Shown: one piece after another, positions 1 to 35,259 of the stretch
Layout: each line of letters opens with the position of its first letter
Numbering within the stretch: position 1 is the stretch's first letter
Source of the DNA: Actinomycetes bacterium
Lineage (GTDB): Bacteria; Actinomycetota; Acidimicrobiia; Acidimicrobiales; RAAP-2
Reading direction: 5' to 3'
DNA: 35,259 nt
Assembly: GCA_021782915.1 (NCBI GenBank)
Contig: JAJXUK010000024.1
Span: 1-35,259, forward strand
Translations under genes and position numbers: made by a program
The notes under the pieces: model-generated
Database searches by the model: none
Seen by the model: only the letters and a program-made list of their open reading frames with translations
What the model was told of the DNA's origin: nothing

Positions 1-209
1 CGGCCGCCTCGCGCAGCCGGCGCGTGGCCTCCTCGCGGCGCACGCGCGAGGCCGCCCCGGCCGCCCGCGAGGTCGTCGCCGCGCCGATCGAGGCGCCCGA
101 GATCGAGCCCGACGAGAGCGTCGAGGACGCCGCGAGCAGTCAGATCGAGGCGGTCGAGGCCGTCGAGGAGACGGCCCCGTCGGGCGCCGACGAGGAGACG
201 GAGAACTAA
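1..209 (+). CDS. rplV: 50S ribosomal protein L22, C-terminal tail only (partial)
   Basis: The open frame enters from the left edge (first full codon at base 3) and stops with TAA at 207-209. Only 68 residues are visible. They begin Arg/Ser/Ala-rich and become strongly acidic, with many Glu and Asp up to the end DEETEN. None of the conserved L22 fold lies in the window, so the name rests on position: rplV directly precedes rpsC in bacterial S10 operons. The stop overlaps the rpsC start by one base (TAATG). Such a long acidic tail is an extension beyond the usual L22 length and may be disordered. Confidence 0.72.
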
Positions 210-1132
210 TGGGCCAGAAGGTCAACCCCTACGGCTTCCGCCTCGGCATCACGACCGACTGGAAGTCGCGCTGGTTCAAGGAGCGCGGCTACAAGGACCT
301 CGTGATCGAGGACTGGAAGATCCGTGACTACCTGACCCGCCAGCTCGAGAGCGCCGCGGTCAGCCGCATCGAGATCGAGCGCAACTCGGACCGCATCCGC
401 GTGGACATCCACACGGCGCGCCCGGGCATCGTGATCGGCCGACGCGGTGGTGAGGCCGAGCGCCTGAAGAAGGAGCTCGAGCGCATCACCGGCCAGAAGA
501 ACAAGATCTCCCTGAACATCCAGGAGATCAAGCAGCCCGAGCTCGACGCGGCCCTCATCGCCCAGGGCATCTGCGACCAGCTGCTGCGTCGCGTGGCCTT
601 CCGCCGCGCGATGAAGCGCGGCATCCAGACGGTGCAGAAGGCTGGGGCGCTGGGCGTGCGCATTCAGGCCTCGGGCCGACTCGGGGGCGCGGAGATGTCC
701 CGGCGCGAGTCCTACCACGAGGGTCGCGTGCCGCTGCACACGCTGCGCGCGGACATCGACTACGGCTTCCGCGAGGCGCGCACCAACACCGGGCGCATCG
801 GCGTCAAGGTGTGGATCTACAAGGGCGACATCCTGCCCTACCAGCTCAACAACGAGGAGAAGATCGTGCGCGAGGCCGCCATGGCGGCCGGCGACGCGGT
901 CCCGACCGGCTCGGCCGCCTCGCCCAAGGGCGTCGTGCGCGCCGGTGGCGGGCGCCGCCGCGTGGCCGCAGCCGCGAGTGAGGAGACCGAGGAGGTGCCC
1001 GGCGTGGCCCCGGCCGACCTGCTGGCCGCGACCGAGGACGTCGAGCAGCGCCTCAGCGTGGAAGAGGAGATCGAGCGTCGCACGACGCCAGATCACACCG
1101 ACACGCCGCACTTCCGAAAGGACGCTGAGTAG
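209..1132 (+). CDS. rpsC: 30S ribosomal protein S3 with long C-terminal extension
   Basis: S3 sits at the mRNA entry of the 30S head. The start [15 protein letters not shown] is the family signature. A type II KH domain follows, with its GxxG loop in [10 protein letters not shown] around residues 72-81. The C-terminal domain ends near KGDILP (residues 205-210). Residues 211-307 are an extra tail of about 97 residues, first Ala/Gly/Arg-rich, then acidic, which makes the protein longer than the common 210-280 residues. The ATG overlaps the preceding stop by one base. The identity is certain; the role of the tail is not known. Confidence 0.97.
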
Positions 1133-1134
1133 CC

Positions 1135-1572
1135 ATGTTGATGCCCCGCAAGACAAAGCACCGCAAGCAGCAGCGCGGCCGGATGGCCGGCATGGCCAAG
1201 GGCGGCACCGAGCTGGCCTTCGGCGACTTCGGCATCCAGTCCCTGGAGGCCGGCTGGCTGACGGCTCGTCAGATCGAGGCGGCCCGTATCGCCATGACCC
1301 GTCACGTCAAGCGTGGCGGCAAGGTGTGGATCCGTGTCTTCCCGGACAAGCCCGTGACCCAGAAGCCCGCCGAGACCCGCATGGGCTCGGGCAAGGGCAA
1401 CCCCGAGTTCTGGGTCGCCGTGGTCAAGCCGGGCAAGGTCCTCTTCGAGCTCGGTGGCGTGGACGCCGAGCTGGCGCGCGCCGCCATGGAGCGCGCCATC
1501 CAGAAGCTGCCCATGAAGGCGAAGTTCATCGTGCGTCCCGGGACCCACGGCGCACCGGAGGTGACGATCTGA
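1135..1572 (+). CDS. rplP: 50S ribosomal protein L16
   Basis: L16 binds 23S rRNA near the A-site tRNA and the peptidyl transferase centre. The 145-residue protein starts [17 protein letters not shown], as in the family, and carries [20 protein letters not shown] and the [17 protein letters not shown] segment with the conserved Gly/Lys residues that face the rRNA. The C-terminus [10 protein letters not shown] is a few residues longer than in many orthologues. It starts two bases after rpsC, and its stop shares a base with the rpmC ATG (TGATG). Confidence 0.97.
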
Positions 1573-1808
1573 TGGCCAAGACGAGAGAGCGTGTGGCGGA
1601 GATGCGTCTGCTGGGTGACCAGGAGCTGCTCGAGCGCCTGAGCGAGTCGCGCCGCGAGCTGTTCAACCTGCGCTTCCAGCTGGCGACCGGCCAGCTGGAC
1701 AACTCCGCACGCCTGTCGGCGGCGCGCCGCGACATCGCGCGCCTGCTGACCTTCGTGCGCGAGCGCGAGATCGCGGCCGCGGAGGCCCTGGAAGGTGGTG
1801 AGGCATGA
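1572..1808 (+). CDS. rpmC: 50S ribosomal protein L29
   Basis: L29 is a small helical hairpin protein at the exit-tunnel rim, where it helps form the docking site for nascent-chain factors. The 78-residue frame beginning [19 protein letters not shown] contains the hallmark [16 protein letters not shown], followed by the conserved Arg-rich helix ending with FVRERE. The ATG at 1572 overlaps the L16 stop by one base, and the end overlaps the rpsQ start as ATGA. A longer open frame extends upstream inside rplP, but the family start is clearly at 1572. Confidence 0.96.
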
Positions 1809-2080
1809 GCGACGAGACGAGCCAGCCGCGCGAGAACCCGCGCAAGGTCCGTGAGGGCATCGTGGTGTCCAACAAGATGAACGCGACCCTGGTGGTGGCG
1901 GTCAACGAGCGGGTGAGCCACCCGCGCTACGGCAAGACCGTGCAGCGCACCAAGAAGCTCTACGTGCACGACGAGAAGAACGAGGCGCGCATCGGCGACC
2001 GCGTGCGCGTCGTGGAGACCCGTCCGCTGTCCAAGCTCAAGCGCTGGCGCCTGAGCGACATCCTGGAGCGTGCCCGATGA
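1805..2080 (+). CDS. rpsQ: 30S ribosomal protein S17
   Basis: S17 is a primary 16S rRNA-binding protein of the 30S body with an OB fold. The 91 residues include [16 protein letters not shown], the H-P-x-Y-x-K motif in [20 protein letters not shown], and [20 protein letters not shown], all typical of bacterial S17. A polar N-terminal stretch of about 12 residues precedes the domain. It overlaps rpmC by four bases (ATGA) and rplN by four bases (ATGA), so the three are probably translationally coupled. Confidence 0.97.
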
Positions 2081-2445
2081 TCCAGCAGGAATCACGACTG
2101 AAGGTGGCCGACAACAGTGGAGCCAAGGAGGTGCTGTGCATTCGCGTGCTCGGCGGCTCGCGGCGACGCTACGCCTCGATCGGGGACATCTTCATCGCCA
2201 CGGTCAAGGACGCGATCCCGGGCGCGGCGGTCAAGAAGGGCGACGTGGTGCGCTGCGTCGTCGTGCGCACCGCCAAGGAGAAGCGCCGCCCGGACGGCTC
2301 CTACATCAAGTTCGACGAGAACGCCGCCGTGCTGATCAACGACCAGCTCCAGCCGCGCGGCACGCGCATCTTCGGCCCCGTGGGCCGCGAGCTGCGCGAC
2401 AAGAAGTTCATGCGCATTATCTCGCTGGCACCGGAGGTGTTGTGA
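2077..2445 (+). CDS. rplN: 50S ribosomal protein L14
   Basis: L14 lies at the subunit interface of the 50S, next to the silencing factor RsfS site. The 122-residue length is exact for the family. [19 protein letters not shown], the [13 protein letters not shown] segment and [20 protein letters not shown] with FGPVGREL are the conserved blocks. It overlaps rpsQ by four bases, and its stop TGA shares one base with the rplX ATG. Confidence 0.98.
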
Positions 2446-2750
2446 TGAAGATCCGCAAGGGTGACGAGGTGCTGGTGATCGCCGGCAAGTACCGCGGCGA
2501 GCGCGCGCGCGTCGACCGGGCGATCCCGAGCCGGAACCGGGTGGTGCTGGACGGGCTGAACATCGCCAAGCGCCACACCAAGCAGACGGGCGCGACCATG
2601 CAGGCCGGCATCATCGACAAGGTCATGCCGATGGACGCCTCGAACGTGGCGCTGTGGTGCGGTGCGCACAAGGGTCCGGCCAAGGCCGGCTGGCGCGCGA
2701 GCGACGGGGTCAAGGCACGCGTGTGCCGCAAGTGTGGGGAGGTGCTGTGA
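2445..2750 (+). CDS. rplX: 50S ribosomal protein L24
   Basis: L24 is an assembly-initiator protein of the 50S. The 101-residue frame starts [18 protein letters not shown], the KOW-motif N-terminus, followed by [12 protein letters not shown]. The C-terminus has a Cys pair in CRKCGEVL plus an upstream WCGAH, resembling the zinc-ribbon-like end seen in many bacterial L24 proteins. The ATG at 2445 is preferred over an in-frame GTG one codon earlier because the family begins with M-K-I-R/K. The end overlaps the GTG of rplE by four bases (GTGA). Confidence 0.96.
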
Positions 2751-3298
2751 CACCGCGTCTGAAGGCTCGCTACAACGAGTCCATCCGCCCGGCCCTCAAG
2801 GACGAGCTCGGCCTGGTGAACATCATGCAGGTGCCGCGCCTGTCCAAGATCGTGCTGAACTCCGGCGTCGGGCGCGCCACCCAGCAGGCCAACCTGATCG
2901 AGGGCGCCCAGCGCGACCTCGAGGTCATCACCGGTCAGAAGCCGGTGGTCACGCGGGCCAAGAAGTCGGTGGCCAGCTTCAAGGTGCGCGAGGGCCAGCC
3001 CATCGGCGTCAAGGTCACCCTGCGCGGGGACCGCGCCTGGGAGTTCTTCGACCGCCTGCTGAGCCTGGCGATCCCGCGCATCCGCGACTTCCGCGGCCTG
3101 TCGGCCAAGTCCTTCGACGGTCACGGCAACTACACCTTCGGGATCAACGACCAGCTGATCTTCCCGGAGGTCAACTACGACAAGATCGACTCTGCGCGCG
3201 GTTTCGACATCACGATCGTGACCACGGCGCAGTCCGACGAGCAGGGCCGCGCGTTCTTGCGCGCCTTCGGCTTCCCCTTCAAGCAGGAGAATCGATAG
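2747..3298 (+). CDS. rplE: 50S ribosomal protein L5
   Basis: L5 holds 5S rRNA in the central protuberance and contacts P-site tRNA. The 183-residue protein reads [20 protein letters not shown], then [18 protein letters not shown], the [20 protein letters not shown] block and [18 protein letters not shown], all diagnostic. The GTG start at 2747 is chosen because it gives the family N-terminus and overlaps the rplX stop as GTGA, a junction type used repeatedly here. Two bases separate it from rpsN. Confidence 0.97.
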
Positions 3299-28903: not shown

Positions 28904-28907
28904 GTGA
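28608..28907 (+). pseudogene. Possible decayed regulator gene upstream of the MFS transporter
   Basis: An ATG at 28608 follows TACTGT (28596-28601) by six bases, within TTGATACTGTTCACCAATG, which looks like a TetR-type promoter-operator with TGA and TCA half-sites. The frame is closed by TGA at 28704, but the same frame reopens (28713) and runs to a stop at 28905-28907 that overlaps the MFS GTG as GTGA. A second frame reads ETVLDVARLSRRVS around 28670-28710, which resembles the first helix of a TetR HTH. This fits a regulator shortened and frame-shifted, but no complete domain is visible and the protein family cannot be proved. Confidence 0.3.
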
Positions 28908-30160
28908 GTCTTCGCAGCCTCTCTCGTCGCACGTTCGCGTCGCTGCGCAATCACAACTACCGCCGGTACTTCATCGGCCAGACGGTCTCTCTCGTGGGCA
29001 CCTGGATGCAGGCCACCGCCCAGTCCTGGCTGGTCCTGGTGCTCACCCACTCCGCCACGGACATCGGTGTGGTGGTGGCGCTGCAGACCCTGCCGATGCT
29101 CCTGCTCGGCCCCTACGGCGGTGTCGTGGCGGATCGGGTTGACAAGCGCCGGTTCCAGATCGTGCTGCAGCTGATCATGGGCGTGCAGGCCGCGGTGATG
29201 GCGATCTTGACCCTGACGCACACCGTGAGCTACCTCGAGGTCTGCGTCCTGGCGGTGGTGCTGGGGCTCAACAACTCCTTCGAGTACCCCGCGCGTCAGG
29301 CCTTCATGCTCGAGATGGTCGGCACGCAGGATCTGCCCAACGCGATCAGCCTGAACTCGGCGATGATCAACGCGGCGCGAACGCTCGGTCCGGCGATAGC
29401 CGGCGTGCTCATCGCGACGGTCGGCGAAGGCTGGTGCTTTGCGATCAACGCGTTGAGCTTCGTCGCCGTGGTGGGCTCCTTGCTGGGCATGGATACGACG
29501 CGCCTGAGCCCGACCACTCCGGCCGCGCGCACGCCGGGTCAGCTGCGCGAGGGCGTGCGCTACGTCGTGCGCACCCCCCAGTTGGCGGTGCCGCTGCTCA
29601 TGATGACCCTGGTCGGCGTCTTCGCCTACGAGTTCCAGGTCACGTTGCCCCTGGTGGCGAGCAGCGTCTTCGGGGGCGGGGCAGAGACCTACGGGGCCCT
29701 GACGGCCGCGATGGGCTTCGGGGCCGTCCTCGGGGGCCTGACGACGGCGACGCGGGGGCGCACCGGTCTGGGGCCGATCACCTCGGCGGTCACGGCCTTC
29801 GGCATCTTTCTCGTGGTGGCCGCGCTCGCGCCGATGCTCAGCATCGAGTACCTCGCTCTGGCGGCGGTGGGCTTCGCGGGCGTGCTGTTTCAGGCAGTGG
29901 GCAACGCGACCATGCAACTGGTCGCCGAGCCGCAGATGCGCGGGCGGGTGATGGCGCTGTGGTCGGTGGCGTTCTTCGGCTCGACGCCCATCGGCGGGCC
30001 GCTCATCGGCTGGGTCACCAGCGTGGCCGGCGCGCGGACCGGACTGGCCGTGGGGGCCGTGTCGTGCCTGGTCGCCGCAGCCATCGCCCTGGGGTACCGC
30101 TCCGTCAGTCGCACTCGCGCCGCGGGACTGGACTCTGCGTCAGAGTCGGACGCGTCCTGA
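28904..30160 (+). CDS. MFS transporter (MFS_3 / enterobactin-exporter-like)
   Basis: A 418-residue membrane protein with about 11-12 hydrophobic segments. It begins FASLRNHNYRRYFIGQTVSL and VGTWMQATAQSWLVL, a start typical of the MFS_3 group that includes EntS-type exporters; the loop motif GPYGGVVADRVDKRR between helices 2 and 3 is MFS motif A. The 'EYPARQAF' stretch and the 'GRVMALWS' stretch are further family marks. GTG at 28904 overlaps a possible decayed upstream frame (GTGA). The exported compound cannot be deduced; drug or metabolite efflux is the usual assignment. No obvious terminator follows. Confidence 0.85.
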   Translation: MSLRSLSRRTFASLRNHNYRRYFIGQTVSLVGTWMQATAQSWLVLVLTHSATDIGVVVALQTLPMLLLGPYGGVVADRVDKRRFQIVLQLIMGVQAAVMAILTLTHTVSYLEVCVLAVVLGLNNSFEYPARQAFMLEMVGTQDLPNAISLNSAMINAARTLGPAIAGVLIATVGEGWCFAINALSFVAVVGSLLGMDTTRLSPTTPAARTPGQLREGVRYVVRTPQLAVPLLMMTLVGVFAYEFQVTLPLVASSVFGGGAETYGALTAAMGFGAVLGGLTTATRGRTGLGPITSAVTAFGIFLVVAALAPMLSIEYLALAAVGFAGVLFQAVGNATMQLVAEPQMRGRVMALWSVAFFGSTPIGGPLIGWVTSVAGARTGLAVGAVSCLVAAAIALGYRSVSRTRAAGLDSASESDAS

Positions 30161-30224: not shown

Positions 30225-30253
30225 TTGACACGTCCTCCCGGGGTGGCTACCAT
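30225..30253 (+). promoter_or_regulatory. Promoter of the catabolic cluster (TTGACA-17-TACCAT)
   Basis: A consensus -35 TTGACA (30225-30230) and TACCAT (30248-30253) are 17 bases apart, in the 232-base gap between the MFS and binding-protein genes. Transcription should start near 30260. This is the best -35/-10 pair in the window apart from the similar one at 34851. Confidence 0.75.
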
Positions 30254-30266
30254 GCCCAGTTGCAGG

Positions 30267-30285
30267 AGGTCAGAGGTCAGGGACC
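30267..30285. promoter_or_regulatory. Candidate operator with tandem AGGTCAG repeats
   Basis: Two head-to-tail AGGTCAG copies (30267-30273, 30274-30280) run into GGTC-AGG-GACC (30275-30285). It lies just downstream of the expected transcription start. The nonamer TCAGAGGTC within it (30270-30278) is repeated at 34887-34895, downstream of the second promoter of the cluster. Confidence 0.5.
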
Positions 30286-30326
30286 ACCGGAGTGCGGCGG
30301 GGTCGTTCAGAGTTCTTTGCGCGATG

Positions 30327-30377
30327 ACCGGCGAGGCCGGTGGCGTCTGGGTCAGATTGTGCTGTATCGAGCTACAG
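30327..30377 (+). other. Leader hairpins before the binding-protein gene
   Basis: The 130-base leader has a perfect ACCGGC-GAG-GCCGGT hairpin (30327-30341) and a CTGTA-TCGAGC-TACAG hairpin (30362-30377) that ends a few bases before the GGGGGA ribosome-binding site. GTCTG (30345-30349) could pair instead with CAGAC (30375-30379). I do not recognise a known riboswitch. Confidence 0.4.
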
Positions 30378-30392
30378 ACTTGGGGGAAATCA

Positions 30393-31439
30393 ATGAGGTT
30401 CTTTGAAGGTGGTCGCTTCTGGCGAGCGAAGTTGGTGACAGCCGCGGTGCTGACAGCCAGCGGAACGTTCGCGGTGTACGCGACGGGCAATGCCGGTGCG
30501 GCGGCACAGCGTTTGACGACCATCAACGTCGGGCTTGCGCTGTCGCCTCCCAAGGCGGTGTTCTTCGCGCCCTACGTGGCCCAGGCCAATGGGTACTTCA
30601 AGCGCATGGGCTTGAAGGTCAATCTGATCTCCATGCCGAACGGGCTCAGCACCGAGCTGGGCGCGACGTCGGGATCCATCAACTTCGGGCTGAGCTCGGC
30701 GACGGACTCGGTGGAGGCCGCCGCGGCCAAAGCGCCGATTCACGCCATTGCCTCGTACGGAACCACCCTCGACACCGAGTGCGTGGCCCTGCCGGGATTC
30801 ACCACCGCGGCGGAGCTGAAGGGCCAGCCGGTGGGCACGACGGGCGCTGGTGGCTTCGCGGGCACCACGCTGGCCGCGTGCTTGAAGCCGCTGGGCCTCA
30901 CTCTCAATGACGTGACGCCGATCGTGATGACGCGCTCGCAGTTCCCCGGTGCGATGGCCTCGGGTGCGATCAAGGTCGCGGCGTTCCACGCGGACGACGC
31001 GTACGTGGTGCTGCACTCCATTCCCGGCACGCAGGTCATTGACAAGCAGTATCTGACCCTGCCGAACTGGTGGTACGGCGGCATCGCGTCGCTGGACTCC
31101 TACACCGCGGCACACCCGCTGGTCACGGAGCACTTCCTGGCGGCGCTGATCATGGCCGACAAGTGGATGAACAATCCCAGGAACACGAACCAGCTCATCA
31201 ACATGGGGGTCAAGTGGAGCGGTGAGAGCCGCGCCGCGGTCGACTACGCCGTTCACTTCCTGCTGCGGGCCAAGTCCTACAGCACCGCGGTCATCCCGTC
31301 GATGGTGAACTGGACCTCTCAGGAGTGCGTCACGGTGGGCGACATCACGGGACCCGCACCGACCTACTCGCAGATCGTGAACACGAGGTACCTGAAGGTG
31401 GCCAACCAGATGGTCGCCAAGATGAAGTTCAAGGGCTGA
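30393..31439 (+). CDS. SsuA/THI5-like ABC-type substrate-binding protein, secreted
   Basis: A 348-residue periplasmic-type binding protein of the NMT1/THI5 (SsuA, TauA) fold. ATG at 30393 is chosen because GGGGGA precedes it and it gives a clear Sec signal peptide: basic start up to K13, hydrophobic core LVTAAVLTASGTFAVYA, and an AGA/AAA cleavage region near residues 36-38. The mature part starts with INVGLALSPPKAVFFAPYVA and has ANGYFKRMGLKVNLISMPNG, the typical start of this family. There is no lipobox Cys, unlike most Gram-positive binding proteins. No permease or ATPase gene is in the window. The ligand is unknown; relatives bind sulfonates, taurine, nitrate or pyrimidine precursors. Confidence 0.85.
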   Translation: MRFFEGGRFWRAKLVTAAVLTASGTFAVYATGNAGAAAQRLTTINVGLALSPPKAVFFAPYVAQANGYFKRMGLKVNLISMPNGLSTELGATSGSINFGLSSATDSVEAAAAKAPIHAIASYGTTLDTECVALPGFTTAAELKGQPVGTTGAGGFAGTTLAACLKPLGLTLNDVTPIVMTRSQFPGAMASGAIKVAAFHADDAYVVLHSIPGTQVIDKQYLTLPNWWYGGIASLDSYTAAHPLVTEHFLAALIMADKWMNNPRNTNQLINMGVKWSGESRAAVDYAVHFLLRAKSYSTAVIPSMVNWTSQECVTVGDITGPAPTYSQIVNTRYLKVANQMVAKMKFKG

Positions 31440-31498
31440 GCCGCAGAGCTCAGTCGAGTGAAGTGACGCGGTGATGGTCGCGACGGAGAGGGCTGCCA

Positions 31499-32287
31499 GT
31501 GGCAAGCGATAGAGGGCGCAACGCTCGATTTGACGAGCTGACGAACCCCGAGATCGTGGCAGCCCTCTCCGAGCGGCCGTTGGTGCTGGTGCCCTGCGGC
31601 AGTACCGAGCAGCACGGCGCCCACCTACCCACGGGAACGGACTACTTCGCCAGCCTCGCGGTCTGTGACCTCGTGGCCGACACGATCGGTGGGCTGGTCC
31701 TCGGGGGCATGCAGTTCGGCATCACGCCCATACACATGGGCTTCGCCGGCACGGTGACGGTGTCGGCGGCCACGTTCGAGCAGATCCACCTGGACGTCGC
31801 GGCCTCGCTCGCGGCCCACGGGGTCAAGGAGATCGCCTACGTCAACTGGCACGAGGGCAACATCGGCTCACTGACGACCGTGGCCAGCCGCGTCACCCAG
31901 GAGCTGGGCCTGAACGTCGTGGTTGCCCAGGCGTGCTACGTGGCCGAAGAGCTCTACGGCGAAGAGATGGCGGGCCTGACCCACGGCGGGGCGATCGAAG
32001 CGGGCGCGGTCATGGGCTGGCGCCCCGAGTTGGTGCGCTACGACCAGCTCGACCCGGCCGAGGACTCCCCGGGTGAGCGCTCCGCGGACCACGCCCGTCG
32101 CACTCGCTCCTTCCAGACGATCCTGCGCGACATTCGAGAGATCAGCTCGTCGGGTTGGTACGGCTCGGCCGAGCGCGTCAGTGAGGAAAAAGGCGCCGAG
32201 CTGCTGACGTCGGTGGCCGACGTGGTCGCGCGCGAGCTGCAGGAACGCTTCGGTCGTCTGCGCGCGCTTCGTTCGGGCGACCAGTAG
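31499..32287 (+). CDS. Creatininase-superfamily amidohydrolase-like protein
   Basis: A 262-residue metal hydrolase. The metal motif is PCGSTEQHGAHLPTGTDYF, with E37, H39 and D48, and the second part is N116-W-H118-E-G-N121 (usually NGHGGN). HGGAIEAG gives H162 and E167, a variant of HAGExETS. Family members open cyclic amides (creatinine) or act on other ring or C-C bonds, for example mycofactocin MftE and ring-opening hydrolases of inositol breakdown. GTG at 31499 follows GGAGAG. The gap after the binding-protein gene is 59 bases. Its stop overlaps the cupin GTG, so these two are co-translated. The substrate cannot be named. Confidence 0.85.
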   Translation: MASDRGRNARFDELTNPEIVAALSERPLVLVPCGSTEQHGAHLPTGTDYFASLAVCDLVADTIGGLVLGGMQFGITPIHMGFAGTVTVSAATFEQIHLDVAASLAAHGVKEIAYVNWHEGNIGSLTTVASRVTQELGLNVVVAQACYVAEELYGEEMAGLTHGGAIEAGAVMGWRPELVRYDQLDPAEDSPGERSADHARRTRSFQTILRDIREISSSGWYGSAERVSEEKGAELLTSVADVVARELQERFGRLRALRSGDQ

Positions 32288-32652
32288 TGGCTCGGGTGCT
32301 GCGTCTGGGCGACGCCGAGCGACTGGAGTTGCGCGGTCGCGTGGCCACGCAGATCCTGCGCGGCGCCGAGGCGGCCGATCAGATGACGGTGCGCGTCGTC
32401 GAGGTCGCCCCGGAGATCGCCGGTGAGACGGCGCGTCCCCTTCACGTGCACGACGGCGTGGGCGAGTTCATTTGGATCCTGAAGGGCGCCGGCACCCTGC
32501 ACTGTTCCGACGGGCTCGTGCCGGCCGAGAGCGGTGACGGCATCTACATCCCGCCGGGCGAGAGTCACAAGATCGTGCCCCGCGGGGCCGAGCCGCTGCA
32601 TCTGCTCTGTTTCTTTCCCACTGGCGACATTGCCGCGCGAACGCGAGAGTAG
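32287..32652 (+). CDS. Small single-domain cupin protein
   Basis: A 121-residue beta-barrel protein. Cupin motif 1 is PLHVHDGVGEFIWILKGAGT (H53, H55, E60), and motif 2 is GDGIYIPPGESHKI (H94). These four residues make a usual metal site. Such proteins act as isomerases, dioxygenases or sugar-acid-binding accessory proteins; nothing here fixes which. GTG overlaps the upstream stop (TAGTG). It lies between the creatininase-like and dehydrogenase genes and is likely part of the same pathway. Confidence 0.82.
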   Translation: MARVLRLGDAERLELRGRVATQILRGAEAADQMTVRVVEVAPEIAGETARPLHVHDGVGEFIWILKGAGTLHCSDGLVPAESGDGIYIPPGESHKIVPRGAEPLHLLCFFPTGDIAARTRE

Positions 32653-32654
32653 CG

Positions 32655-33644
32655 GTGAGCGCCTCGCAGCCTTCGCCGGCCGTTCTGTGCCTTCGCCCGC
32701 AGCGCGACTTCGACCAGGTCGGAGTGAGAGTCCCGGCTGAGCTGGCCGTGCGCTTCGTCGAGAACGAGAGCGCGCTGAGCGAGATCGGTCCCGAGGTGCA
32801 GTGCCTGGTTCTGCCCTCGGCGGGCCCGGCGCTCTCGGCGGATCTCTTTGACGCCGCGAGCGGTCTTCGACTTGTGCAGTACACGGGCGCGGGCGTTGAT
32901 CGAGTGTCCGATGAGATTCTCGACGAGCTGGGCTGTGCGGTCTGCAACGTTCCGGGCGCGAGCGCTCCCGACGTTGCCACGTACGTCGTTCTCGCAACGG
33001 GCGTGCTGCTGCGACGGCTCCTGCTGGGTGATCAGCTGGTCAAGTCGGGTCACTACGCCGAGGCGCGCGCCCAGATGGTGCCGGCGCGGGTGCGAGGATT
33101 CCGCGGCCTGCGCGTCGGCGTCGTGGGCTTCGGGGGCATCGGCACGGAGGTGGCTCGGGTGTTTGGCGCGTTGGGCGCCCACGTGCGCTGGTTTGATCCG
33201 GCGCCCGCGTCCCCAGAGCCCGCGGCGCAGTTCGAGCGCAGCTCGCTCGAGGAGCTGCTGGCTCTCAGCGAGGTGATCACCCTGCACGTTCCCCTGGTGG
33301 ACGCCACGCGAGGGCTGCTGGACGCGAGCGCGCTCGCGCAGCTTCCCCAGGGTGCGATCGTGGTGAACGCCTCACGCGGTGGCGTGCTCGACGAGGCGGC
33401 CCTGATCGACGCGCTGGACTCTGGTCACCTGGGCGGCGTGGCCCTGGACGTCTACGAGACCGAGCCCCTCGCGGCGGACTCGCCGCTGCTCGGTCTCGCG
33501 GCGCGTCACCCCGACCGAGTGCTCATGACCCCGCACATCGCGGGTGTCACGCCCGAGGCGTCGCGCGTTCTCTTTGAACGCGCGTGGGACAACGTGCGCG
33601 GAGTGCTGATCGAGGGTCGCGCACCGCAGAATCGACTGCGCTGA
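32655..33644 (+). CDS. D-isomer-specific 2-hydroxyacid dehydrogenase
   Basis: A 329-residue NAD(P)-dependent oxidoreductase linking a 2-hydroxyacid and a 2-oxoacid. The nucleotide loop is VGVVGFGGIGTEVARVFGAL (residues 154-173), with D181 at the end of the second strand pointing to NAD preference. The catalytic set is R241 in NASRGGVLDEAALIDAL, E270 in DVYETEPL and H294 in TPHIAGVTPEAS. GTG starts two bases after the cupin stop. One relative of this family, SlcC, oxidises (S)-sulfolactate; phosphoglycerate, glyoxylate and other substrates are equally possible. Confidence 0.9.
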   Translation: MSASQPSPAVLCLRPQRDFDQVGVRVPAELAVRFVENESALSEIGPEVQCLVLPSAGPALSADLFDAASGLRLVQYTGAGVDRVSDEILDELGCAVCNVPGASAPDVATYVVLATGVLLRRLLLGDQLVKSGHYAEARAQMVPARVRGFRGLRVGVVGFGGIGTEVARVFGALGAHVRWFDPAPASPEPAAQFERSSLEELLALSEVITLHVPLVDATRGLLDASALAQLPQGAIVVNASRGGVLDEAALIDALDSGHLGGVALDVYETEPLAADSPLLGLAARHPDRVLMTPHIAGVTPEASRVLFERAWDNVRGVLIEGRAPQNRLR

Positions 33645-33751
33645 GCGGTGTGCAGTGCTGTAGTGACGACGGTCGAGCAGACGGCGTGTCGTCTCGGGGG
33701 TGTCTACAGGTGTGGCACCCGCGAGGGGACCGGTAAAGGAGAGACAGAGAC

Positions 33752-34837
33752 ATGGGCGGCACGAAGGTGAGCGCACGAGCGCGACTGGCGGCGGTGGGTC
33801 TAGGGCGATGGGGTCGCATCATGGCCTCGGCGTACGTCAACAGCGAGGCCGTGGAGCTGGTGAGCTGCTTCAGTCGCGACGCCGAGCGCCGAGGTCGCTT
33901 CGCCGCGGACTACGGCTGCGGTGAGGACGAGTCCCTGGAGGCCCTCCTGGCGCGTGAGGACATCGACGGCGTGGTGGTGACCGTGCCCAACGATCAGCAC
34001 GCACCGGTGATCGAGGCGGCCGCACGAGCCGGCAAGCACGTCTTCGTCGAGAAGCCCGTGGCGGTGCAGGTCGAGCACGTCAAGCGCATTCAGAGGGCCG
34101 TCGCGGAGTCGGGCATCGTGTTCGCCTGCGGGCACAGCGCGCGACGCTTGGCGGGCGTTCGAGAGATGCGTCGGAGCCTGGACTCGGGCGAGCTCGGCAC
34201 GCCCTCGATGGTGGAGGCGGTCTTTTCCAACGAGCGCGGTCTGGAGCTGAGAGAGGGCGACTGGCGAGGCGACCCCGCTCAGTCCCCCGGTGGACCACTG
34301 ACCCAGTTGGGGATCCACCAGATCGACAACCTGAACTACCTCTTCGGGGTGCCCACGCGGGTCGTGGGCGTGGGACGCAAGGGTGCACCCCGGGTCGCCA
34401 ACACGATGGTGGTCGGGGCCCTGTTGGAGTACGACGACGTGGTCGGCTTCCTCGGAACTGACTGGCTGACCCCGGGGGCCTTCACGATGGACCTCTACGG
34501 GACGCGGGCCCGTCTGCGCTACGAGTTGGACTTCAGCTGGTGGAGTGACTCGGCCGACACGGACGCGCACGCGCGACTCATCAAGGTGCACATCGAGTCC
34601 GACAGTGACGACCCCGACGCGCGCATCCTGTCCGAGCAGCCCGTTCAGCTGGCCGCCCGCAATCACCTGCGCGAAGAGGTCGAGGAGTTCGGCCGGGCCC
34701 TACGCGGGCAGGCTCAGGTGGAGGTCGGCCTATCGAGCGCCGTGGCCAACGTGGCGGTGGTGCTGGCCACGGCCCGGGCGATCGAGCAGGGCCGCGCGGT
34801 GGACATCGCCGAGCTGCAGAGCGAACTCAGCATCTGA
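33752..34837 (+). CDS. Gfo/Idh/MocA-family oxidoreductase
   Basis: A 361-residue NAD(P)-dependent dehydrogenase of sugar- or cyclitol-type substrates. The Rossmann loop is AVGLGRWGRIMASAYVNSEA; the catalytic lysine K101 is in FVEKPVAVQVEHVKRIQ. The C-terminal active site GGPLTQLGIHQIDNLNYLFG keeps H189 and D192, but where inositol dehydrogenases have Asp the residue is Q186. ATG follows AAGGAGAG after a 107-base gap that holds no obvious promoter or terminator. It is probably part of the cluster begun at 30225. The substrate is unknown. Confidence 0.88.
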   Translation: MGGTKVSARARLAAVGLGRWGRIMASAYVNSEAVELVSCFSRDAERRGRFAADYGCGEDESLEALLAREDIDGVVVTVPNDQHAPVIEAAARAGKHVFVEKPVAVQVEHVKRIQRAVAESGIVFACGHSARRLAGVREMRRSLDSGELGTPSMVEAVFSNERGLELREGDWRGDPAQSPGGPLTQLGIHQIDNLNYLFGVPTRVVGVGRKGAPRVANTMVVGALLEYDDVVGFLGTDWLTPGAFTMDLYGTRARLRYELDFSWWSDSADTDAHARLIKVHIESDSDDPDARILSEQPVQLAARNHLREEVEEFGRALRGQAQVEVGLSSAVANVAVVLATARAIEQGRAVDIAELQSELSI

Positions 34838-34850
34838 GCCTGAGCGGTGA

Positions 34851-34879
34851 TTGACAGGCGGATAGTCGGATGCTAGCGT
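34851..34879 (+). promoter_or_regulatory. Second promoter of the cluster (TTGACA-17-TAGCGT, extended -10)
   Basis: Consensus TTGACA (34851-34856) and TAGCGT (34874-34879), 17 bases apart, with TGC directly before the -10 (extended -10). It has the same architecture as the promoter at 30225. It starts 14 bases after the oxidoreductase stop and should drive the SAF-domain gene and those beyond the window. Confidence 0.72.
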
Positions 34880-34886
34880 GCCCTTA

Positions 34887-34901
34887 TCAGAGGTCTGACC
34901 T
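34887..34901. promoter_or_regulatory. Candidate palindromic operator AGGTCTGACCT
   Basis: AGGTC-T-GACCT (34891-34901) is a perfect palindrome, overlapped by TCAGA-GG-TCTGA (34887-34898). The form GT-N3-AC resembles operators of GntR/FCD-type regulators such as FadR. It lies at the expected transcription start, and it shares TCAGAGGTC with the candidate operator at 30267. No regulator gene is in the window. Confidence 0.55.
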
Positions 34902-34904
34902 ATT

Positions 34905-34935
34905 GCCGGCAGAGTCGCCGGCGGCGGTCGGCGAC
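34905..34935 (+). other. Leader with two mutually exclusive hairpins
   Basis: GCCGGC-AGAGTC-GCCGGC (34905-34922) can form a hairpin. GTCGCC (34914-34919) can pair instead with GGCGAC (34930-34935). The two share bases 34917-34919, so only one can form. They precede the SAF gene in its leader. Confidence 0.35.
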
Positions 34936-34966
34936 AGTGCAACACGTAGGAAGCTAGAGGCAGAAG

Positions 34967-35259
34967 ATGAGTGAACAGTTGTCATTTCTGGCGCACCATC
35001 AGGGAGACATGGTGGCCGTCGCGGTGCGGGACGTGGCGCCCGGAGCCGCGGCGTACGCGTTCCTCGACTCCGAGGAGTGGAGTCAGATCCACGTGCTCGA
35101 GGCGATCCCGCTGGGCCACAAGGTGGCCCTAGTCGACATCGCCGAGGGCGCTGAGGTTATCGAATACGGACAGCGCGTGGGCGTGAGCACGGCAGCAATT
35201 TCGGCGGGCGCGATGGTGCACGTTCACAACATAAGGAGCACAAAATGGCAAGTGGCCTG
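34967..35259 (+). CDS. SAF-domain small subunit of the UxaA/SuyA type (3' end outside window)
   Basis: The frame is open to the right edge, giving 97 residues. FLAHHQGDMVAVAVRDVAPG at the start, IPLGHKVALVDIAEGAEVIE in the middle and GAMVHVHNIRSTKW at the end are the marks of the SAF-fold subunit found in altronate and galactarate dehydratases and in (R)-sulfolactate sulfo-lyase (SuyA). In two-gene versions this small chain is about 90-100 residues and is followed by the large catalytic subunit, as here. ATG at 34967 is preceded by a modest ribosome-binding site (AGAGG). The start F-L-x-H-x-x-G-D-x-V is shared by SuyA and UxaA-like subunits, so the substrate cannot be fixed. Confidence 0.8.
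   Translation, partial: MSEQLSFLAHHQGDMVAVAVRDVAPGAAAYAFLDSEEWSQIHVLEAIPLGHKVALVDIAEGAEVIEYGQRVGVSTAAISAGAMVHVHNIRSTKWQVA
35244..35259 (+). CDS. First codons of the next gene, probably the UxaA/SuyB-type large subunit
   Basis: ATG at 35244, after AAGGAG (35232-35237) at a seven-to-eight-base distance, begins M-A-S-G-L in a different frame from the SAF gene. Since the SAF protein should end at about this point, the two genes very likely overlap. Only five codons are visible, so the large-subunit name is inferred from the usual small-large pairing. Confidence 0.4.

Follow-up and report, generated by a model that had tools for sequence, protein, structure and literature searches.

The 3' end of the window, that is, the whole stretch of 35,259 nucleotides that we analysed (contig C7 of a 2.15-Mb metagenome-assembled genome, MAG, in 84 contigs, 97% complete, from an Actinomycetes bacterium), carries the first part of a gene cluster that continues on the next contigs. 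This is probably a jointly regulated cluster for the catabolism of organosulfonates, compounds that are important in the carbon and sulfur cycles: a quartet of enzymes would produce sulfolactate from an imported sulfonate, and a SuyAB-type lyase would convert it into pyruvate and sulfite. Gene content, conservation, the membership of the lyase in the SuyB clade and shared regulatory sites are observed; the substrate class, the order of the steps and the pairing of regulator and sites are inferred. Overall, it appears to be a novel version of sulfonate catabolism by SuyAB with a widely conserved upstream module. The SuyAB-type lyase seems to receive its substrate from the four enzymes of this module, which recurs in three phyla, and identifying the compound that the module acts on might bring to light a sulfonate not yet recognised in the environment or a new kind of bond cleavage.

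In the proposed pathway, a NitT/TauT-type ATP-binding cassette (ABC) importer, encoded by the genes for a substrate-binding protein (SBP), an ATPase (ATP) and a permease (PER), would, as these genes suggest, take up an anionic, probably sulfonated compound. The quartet, consisting of a Gfo/Idh/MocA dehydrogenase (GFO), a creatininase-family hydrolase (CRE), a cupin (CUP) and a D-2-hydroxyacid dehydrogenase (DHG), perhaps together with an LVIVD propeller (LVI), would convert it into sulfolactate. GFO may oxidize a hydroxyl group, CRE may hydrolyze the bond activated by GFO (the C–C bond of a beta-dicarbonyl, a lactone and an amide being equally open), and DHG may reduce or interconvert a 2-oxo/2-hydroxy acid. 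SAF and UXA, the predicted small and large subunits of the sulfo-lyase, would then form pyruvate from sulfolactate with elimination of sulfite, and a GntR/FCD regulator may act on related sites at all three operons. The first-pass annotation had left sulfonate breakdown and sugar-acid or cyclitol breakdown side by side; the former has since gained from the SuyB clade, the ABC genes and the conserved neighborhood, and is now supported better than the latter.

SAF and UXA are the adjacent pair of a SAF-domain small subunit and a GD_AH-domain large subunit that characterizes SuyAB, and the start of UXA lies within SAF, as in a coupled pair. The UxaA/SuyA-type lyase that had been noted in the window is indeed SuyA-like, though only its small subunit is there; the large subunit that was to be sought downstream is on the next contig and falls into the SuyB-like clade. 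This clade comprises 49 rows in a tree of 62 proteins (support 100) and leaves the sugar-acid dehydratases outside. Our trees were calculated with a quick method, the support values being those of the SH-like approximate likelihood-ratio test (SH-aLRT) and not bootstrap values, and trees, structure predictions and fold searches were single runs. UXA shares 58.4% identity with the large subunit whose gene adjoins hpsN/hpsO in Cupriavidus pinatubonensis HN-2, and 58.9% with the one from Sinorhizobium mexicanum. A tblastn search of plasmids with UXA gave 313 records, and among the best 50 of these, identity was 55–74% for 13 and did not exceed about 40% for the others. We fetched 12 of the 13, nine annotated and three without annotation. 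Of the nine annotated SuyB-clade loci, eight had at least one of the following: an HpsN-type gene (some annotated as histidinol dehydrogenase and reinterpreted here), an exporter of the TauE or sulfate type, or a sulfite oxidase. The remaining one, from Rhodococcus koreensis (L096), had a hydroxyacid/Ldh dehydrogenase pair only. Matches to CRE or GFO were absent from the six plasmid SuyB loci checked and from the S. mexicanum locus, and the 33 features at 150–190 kb of the Ruegeria pomeroyi megaplasmid included no UxaA-type gene. Four dehydratases were fetched from below the identity gap. Three of them (L166, L167, L169), at 36–40% identity to UXA, are encoded beside sugar-acid genes and fall outside the SuyB clade, and the fourth (L168) lies beside a tripartite tricarboxylate transporter protein and a dehydrogenase pair, a context from which it follows that a UxaA-type pair alone is no mark of sulfonate metabolism. 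Judged by sequence, SAF and UXA are SuyAB-like and apart from the sugar-acid dehydratases.

Published SuyAB routes, as far as passages of PMC12421959, PMC12890257 and PMC11382572 describe them, start from 2,3-dihydroxypropane-1-sulfonate (DHPS), sulfolactate or sulfo-sugars, via named enzymes. In these passages, SuyAB is an Fe(II)-dependent lyase that yields pyruvate and sulfite, and HpsN makes R-sulfolactate (PMC11382572); SlcC/ComC feed SuyAB in a sulfofucose degrader, and S. mexicanum is among the carriers of SuyA/SuyB homologues (PMC12421959); SuyAB is also named in C. pinatubonensis JMP134 (PMC12890257). The cluster shares with the HpsNOP-SuyAB and SlcC-ComC-SuyAB systems for DHPS and sulfolactate the SuyAB-type lyase pair and GntR regulators, and the SuyAB loci of Paracoccus versutus and P. 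ferrooxidans have an adjoining NitT-type ABC importer as well. Unlike these systems, it lacks HpsN, HpsO, HpsP, SlcC and ComC, in whose place there are the Gfo, creatininase-like and cupin genes, a different 2-hydroxyacid dehydrogenase and the LVIVD propeller. In the whole MAG, at its 97% completeness, ComC was not found (no match to NF040650 at E 0.001), and neither was HpsN, whose sole homologue is in two pieces and 34–35% identical, with no GRY[AS]H motif found in it. No described sulfolactate supply is therefore evident, which leaves GFO, CRE, CUP, DHG and LVI for this task. The first-pass annotation had brought up SlcC for DHG, an assignment that the tree does not support: the four SlcC-type references form a clade (support 99) that does not include DHG, although these references were assigned from their genomic place and the deep branches of this tree are weak. 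As DHG is no member of that clade and ComC and HpsN were not found, the cluster is not the textbook sulfolactate route. In open-licence literature, we found no description of this gene set (creatininase with sulfolactate, organosulfonate or sulfoquinovose, Gfo/UxaA, cupin, LVIVD).

One could still imagine plain sulfolactate catabolism, in which DHG would act as SlcC and GFO would replace ComC, so that both form a two-enzyme sulfolactate racemase before SuyAB, while CRE and CUP free sulfolactate from an ester or amide. Pairs annotated as a hydroxyacid or NAD(P)-dependent dehydrogenase and an Ldh enzyme, taken as SlcC and ComC, do adjoin SuyAB in other species, DHG is 44% identical over 245 residues to the hydroxyacid dehydrogenase of L099, and locus L022 has the quartet, SuyAB and an Ldh_2 gene, the latter 60% identical to one beside SuyAB in Paracoccus aestuarii. 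However, such a dehydrogenase pair also occurs beside the UxaA pair of L168, outside the SuyB clade, the quartet mostly occurs without SuyAB, and DHG stays outside the SlcC-type clade, so that we consider this explanation unlikely.

None of the four quartet proteins, nor SAF or UXA, reaches the cut-off of any NCBIfam model. CRE belongs to the creatininase superfamily (PF02633, 178 bits), and its predicted structure (predicted local distance difference test, pLDDT, 91.6) matches creatininase-family structures at Z 24.5–27.5, the highest value being that to 3no4, with the next entries at Z 8.0. It is below the creatininase model TIGR04448 (97.6 bits, cut-off 235) and the model NF041098 of the 3-dehydro-scyllo-inosose hydrolase IolN (57.3 bits, cut-off 245). 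Creatininase itself (1q3k, 1j2t) is alike in fold (Z about 26), but the identity is just 27–28%. All of 45 sequences compared, some of them retrieved by way of the WHEGN motif, keep this motif and E37, H39, D48, H118 and E167, and the metal-ligand pattern matches that of creatininase. The closest solved structure to GFO is 3db2, a putative oxidoreductase (400 bits), and among NCBIfam models GFO scores highest on inositol 2-dehydrogenase (107.5 bits, under the cut-off of 355). The 2-hydroxyacid dehydrogenases in the DHG slot form three groups in a tree of 47, with strong branches compatible with one origin; if the slot was nevertheless refilled, the reaction of DHG belongs to the pathway.

The sequence of oxidation, hydrolysis and reduction that the first-pass annotation had sketched for cyclitols or sugar acids describes the upstream part of the proposed pathway fairly. 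In the Thermotoga inositol pathway IolG-IolM-IolN, a Gfo dehydrogenase and a creatininase-family hydrolase are encoded in one cluster, and IolN, of the creatininase family, cuts the C–C bond of a 1,3-diketone during inositol breakdown; unlike that system, GFO and CRE are far under the inositol model cut-offs, and the lyase is SuyB-like. D-2-hydroxyacid dehydrogenases commonly reduce hydroxypyruvate. By analogy, a hydrolytic retro-Claisen route can be drawn, a detailed version that we regard as rather improbable: GFO and a partner would make a 2,4-diketone from an imported sulfo-sugar acid, CRE would cut C3–C4 with water like IolN to give sulfolactate and hydroxypyruvate, DHG would form glycerate and recycle NADH, and SuyAB would desulfonate. 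If this were true, loci that lack SuyAB would use this chemistry for non-sulfonated analogues, or their pathway would stop at sulfolactate, which would be exported. The similarities to the inositol enzymes, all under cut-offs, also fit a sugar-acid or cyclitol pathway, in which GFO would oxidize a cyclitol, CRE would open the ring like IolN, DHG would reduce, and UXA would be a dehydratase of the altronate/galactarate type that forms a product like 2-keto-3-deoxygluconate (KDG). The only NCBIfam match of UXA, galactarate dehydratase (TIGR03248, 139.1 bits, under the cut-off of 730.85), can be quoted for this as well. Yet UXA is in the SuyB clade while dehydratases with sugar-acid neighbors are outside, and the KDG-type aldolase or kinase that had been proposed as a sign of such a pathway was not seen among the identified cluster genes, which makes sugar-acid or cyclitol breakdown improbable.

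A search of 61 genomes at E 1e-30 found CRE in our own genome and in three of the 36 further congeneric species, and not in any of the 24 genomes from the same order, a patchy distribution that suggests an accessory cluster. The three congeneric carriers hold all ten proteins, with the ATP-PER block inverted in two and more reordering in one. Public genomes were scanned with an alignment of CRE; choosing loci by two CRE peptide patterns and keeping the best 80 of 116 provided a set of 79 loci, which includes three repeat genomes of the genus and whose counts are not random-sample rates. All four quartet genes lie within 4.5 kb in 63 of them, and GFO, CRE and DHG in 70, in several gene orders, so the linkage goes beyond chance, and the possibility that these genes are never linked elsewhere did not hold. 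The titles include Alphaproteobacteria, Gammaproteobacteria, Actinomycetes, Acidimicrobiia, Clostridia, Chloroflexi and others; the quartet recurs in Actinomycetota, Pseudomonadota and Bacillota. Named isolates among its carriers are Nocardioides caldifontis (L093), Conexibacter sp. CPCC 206217 (L068) and Amorphus coralli (L035).

UXA is encoded within 8 kb of CRE at 15 of the 79 loci. In the UXA tree, the quartet-linked rows (including L140, on the same contig as quartet locus L075) are spread over the SuyB clade with six label changes, of which strongly supported branches require at least four (mean after shuffling, 15.2); as far as the sequences tell, SuyAB and the quartet were joined or parted several times. 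We also checked 50 genomes that carry a CRE locus, which cover 50 of the 75 loci first chosen. A SuyB-clade gene is present in 20 of them (two in pieces or as a fragment), and seven more have weaker relatives only; excluding six genomes without GFO, CRE or DHG within 4.5 kb, the count is 18/44. Among alphaproteobacterial quartet genomes, SuyB occurs in 9/25, compared with 33/384 in a class sample from which the centre was excluded (p 3e-4, kinship uncorrected); the 25 were counted by record title and place, one being titled Proteobacteria and one Acidobacteria, and L041, with CRE alone, was excluded. This comparison sets CRE-found genomes against a class sample because CRE occurs in 1/385 genomes of the random sample, the centre itself. 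In 395 Actinomycetota, own genome excluded, SuyB was found in 2/5 with CRE versus 11/390 without (p 0.009, kinship uncorrected). Away from the quartet, the neighbors of SuyB are SlcC- and ComC-type genes (L177, L179, L184), HpsNOP (L178, L182), a ComC-type gene alone (L176, L180) or neither (L181, L183). The actinobacterial locus L187 (G244:C331:72000-91000) has HpsN, HpsO, an ABC importer, SuyAB, a Gfo gene (35% to GFO) and a divergent creatininase homologue (28% to CRE). This locus and L022 tie quartet-type genes to C3 sulfonates.

Several observations weigh against an organosulfonate cluster. There is no UXA within 8 kb in 64/79 loci, many of which are cut by contig ends, and 30/50 CRE-locus genomes, mostly incomplete MAGs, have no SuyB-clade gene; the quartet may thus serve other substrates or end products. 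Nine quartet loci have TauE/SafE instead of SuyAB (one member of each of two groups was tested), and only one of those genomes has SuyB. The neighbor sub-groups of quartet loci point in differing directions, the Ldh_2 gene of L022 reaches 176 bits on the ComC model against a cut-off of 500, and members of the SuyB clade may have shifted to a different substrate. A sulfite exporter, anticipated by the first-pass annotation for a sulfonate pathway, or a sulfite oxidase was not seen among the identified cluster genes. TauE/SafE was dropped as a genome marker, as the family had matches in all 14 control genomes, and the four copies in our own genome are uninformative. Finally, regulator and sites are paired by proximity. 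We consider it very unlikely that the four genes form a general-purpose module acting on a natural product that is not sulfonated, with SuyAB adjacent only because both travel in catabolic islands: transporters differ among loci and most loci lack SuyAB, but the linkage changed repeatedly on the UXA tree, related sites are common to the operons in relatives, and SuyB is enriched at the genome level.

Joint regulation is suggested by the two matching promoters already recognized in the first-pass annotation (Table 1), each of which is followed by an operator-like site common to relatives. GGTCAGAGGTCAGNGACC is found at a constant distance past the -10 element of the SBP promoter in five distinct loci (window, L016, L013, L014, L018); it is absent 5' of SBP in L015 and L021, two loci in which SBP follows SAF and UXA. 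Sites of the AGGTCNGACC type, some with at least one mismatch, lie 5' of SAF and ATP in our own genome and in relatives. Ten loci, several of them near relatives and 198 kb in total, contain 17 exact copies of GGTCNGACC, compared with 7.9 expected from base composition; read by eye, 14 of the 17 are just 5' of SAF or ATP, two are elsewhere and one was not displayed. The related sites at three promoters suggest a single regulon that comprises the importer, SuyAB and the other enzymes. The neighboring GntR gene is, by proximity, the natural candidate for a putative regulator; the corresponding regulator of L016 is a GntR protein with FCD domain (Pfam), 89% identical to that of our own genome.

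The six co-directional genes with short gaps or overlaps that had been described for the window were found at 30393-35259, cut by the contig end, with a 59 bp gap, a 1 bp overlap and gaps of 2, 107 and 129 bp from SBP to SAF. Position 30225, given as the start of the feature, belongs to a promoter and is not a gene start. The last 30 bases of the window equal the reversed end of contig C46, whose other end overlaps C10 imperfectly. Read through, the order is SBP, CRE, CUP, DHG, GFO, SAF, UXA, LVI, ATP, PER and the opposite-strand GntR gene, eleven genes in total. Both joins are supported by L016, a MAG titled Actinomycetes with a 95% identical UXA, because SBP to PER stand there in identical order on one contig, with GntR after PER. 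An MFS (major facilitator superfamily) transporter gene lies just 5' of the cluster (window 28904-30160); homologues are found upstream of the cluster in L016 (82%) and on the other strand in L021 (61%), and it may travel with the cluster.

Table 1. Position of cluster genes and regulatory elements in the window and on the adjoining contigs
Feature	Position	Strand	Remarks
Promoter of SBP operon, TTGACA-17-TACCAT	30225..30253	+	Same layout in L016, L013 (=L017), L014 (=L030), L018
Operator-like repeat GGTCAGAGGTCAGGGACC	30268..30285	.	14 bp past -10
SBP, NMT1/SsuA-superfamily substrate-binding protein of ABC importer	30393..31439	+	Pfam NMT1 PF09084, 66 bits
CRE, creatininase-family metal hydrolase	31499..32287	+	Pfam PF02633, 178 bits
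CUP, small cupin	32287..32652	+	Pfam Cupin_2
DHG, D-2-hydroxyacid dehydrogenase	32655..33644	+	Pfam 2-Hacid_dh; Arg, Glu, His motifs intact
GFO, Gfo/Idh/MocA dehydrogenase	33752..34837	+	Pfam GFO_IDH_MocA; EKP motif intact
Promoter of SuyAB-like operon, TTGACA-17-TAGCGT	34851..34879	+	
Palindromic operator-like site AGGTCTGACCT	34891..34901	.	Similar site 5' of ATP gene on next contig
SAF, SuyA-like small subunit, 97 aa	34967..35259	+	Pfam SAF; stop codon finishes on next contig
UXA (SuyB-like large subunit), first five codons	35245..35259	+	Overlapping SAF
UXA, remainder	contig G000:C46, L005:3008-4162	minus	Pfam GD_AH second and C-terminal domains
LVI, LVIVD propeller	contig G000:C46 (L005), 1648-2955		After UXA; Pfam LVIVD
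ATP, ABC ATPase	contig G000:C46 (L005), 658-1515		After LVI; Pfam ABC_tran
PER, ABC permease, start	contig G000:C46 (L005), 3-674		PER end on G000:C10; Pfam BPD_transp_1
GntR regulator gene	contig G000:C10	opposite to cluster	After PER

The ABC permease and ATPase genes that were to be sought downstream are on the next contigs. The description of SBP as SsuA-like stands at the level of the NMT1/SsuA superfamily; with 37.7 bits on the SsuA aliphatic sulfonate model TIGR01728 (cut-off 163.5), it is only distantly SsuA-like. Its N-terminus resembles a signal peptide by eye. LVI is a predicted beta-propeller (pLDDT 88.5), whose top Foldseek match is the Sphingobium TCM1 phosphotriesterase 5hrm (E 1.3e-15). 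The same protein, with 5ioj of the same molecule name, was its sole sequence-profile match in the PDB at E 0.01 (E 2.3e-14), with only parts aligning. H134, H235, H284, H347, H350, E300 and E351 are invariant in 13 sequences, and LVI is perhaps a metal-dependent enzyme. Its fold list (VIA) is filled by WD40 propellers at Z 30–32 and is uninformative on enzyme families lacking there. LVI lies within 8 kb of CRE in 14/79 loci (e.g., L024:7595-8788, L035:12299-13543), and an LVIVD propeller adjoins SuyAB in L186 (L186:4484).

Transporters adjacent to the quartet vary between a NitT-type ABC, a binding-protein-dependent permease set that is Opp-like by eye (L063) and a sodium:sulfate symporter family member (L059). 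Neighbors of the quartet outside the SuyAB loci (glutathione-transferase, OsmC, Amidohydro_2, FrsA-like, FAA-hydrolase, CoA-ligase- and LeuA-like genes, other transporters) were considered as guides to the substrate and discarded, as they define sub-groups only and no consistent substrate. Marine alphaproteobacterial loci (L028:2240-4833, L037:12209-13977, L049:10816-12602) have two or three glutathione-transferase-like genes, OsmC-domain proteins and a NitT-type ABC, a distinct catabolic island. Four loci (L025:6172-8153, L093:4236-6292, L094:1721-3744, L092) encode, near CRE, a flavoprotein with a ferredoxin-like partner that is related to fumarate reductase and adenylyl-sulfate reductase alpha, under cut-offs, and that could handle sulfite or be an unrelated reductase. 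The Firmicutes version of the quartet (L057:9995-16567, L059:9971-18770, L060) has a LeuA/homocitrate-synthase-like gene and an ATP-grasp CoA-ligase gene with a presumed partner, which suggests a CoA-dependent ending in these loci.

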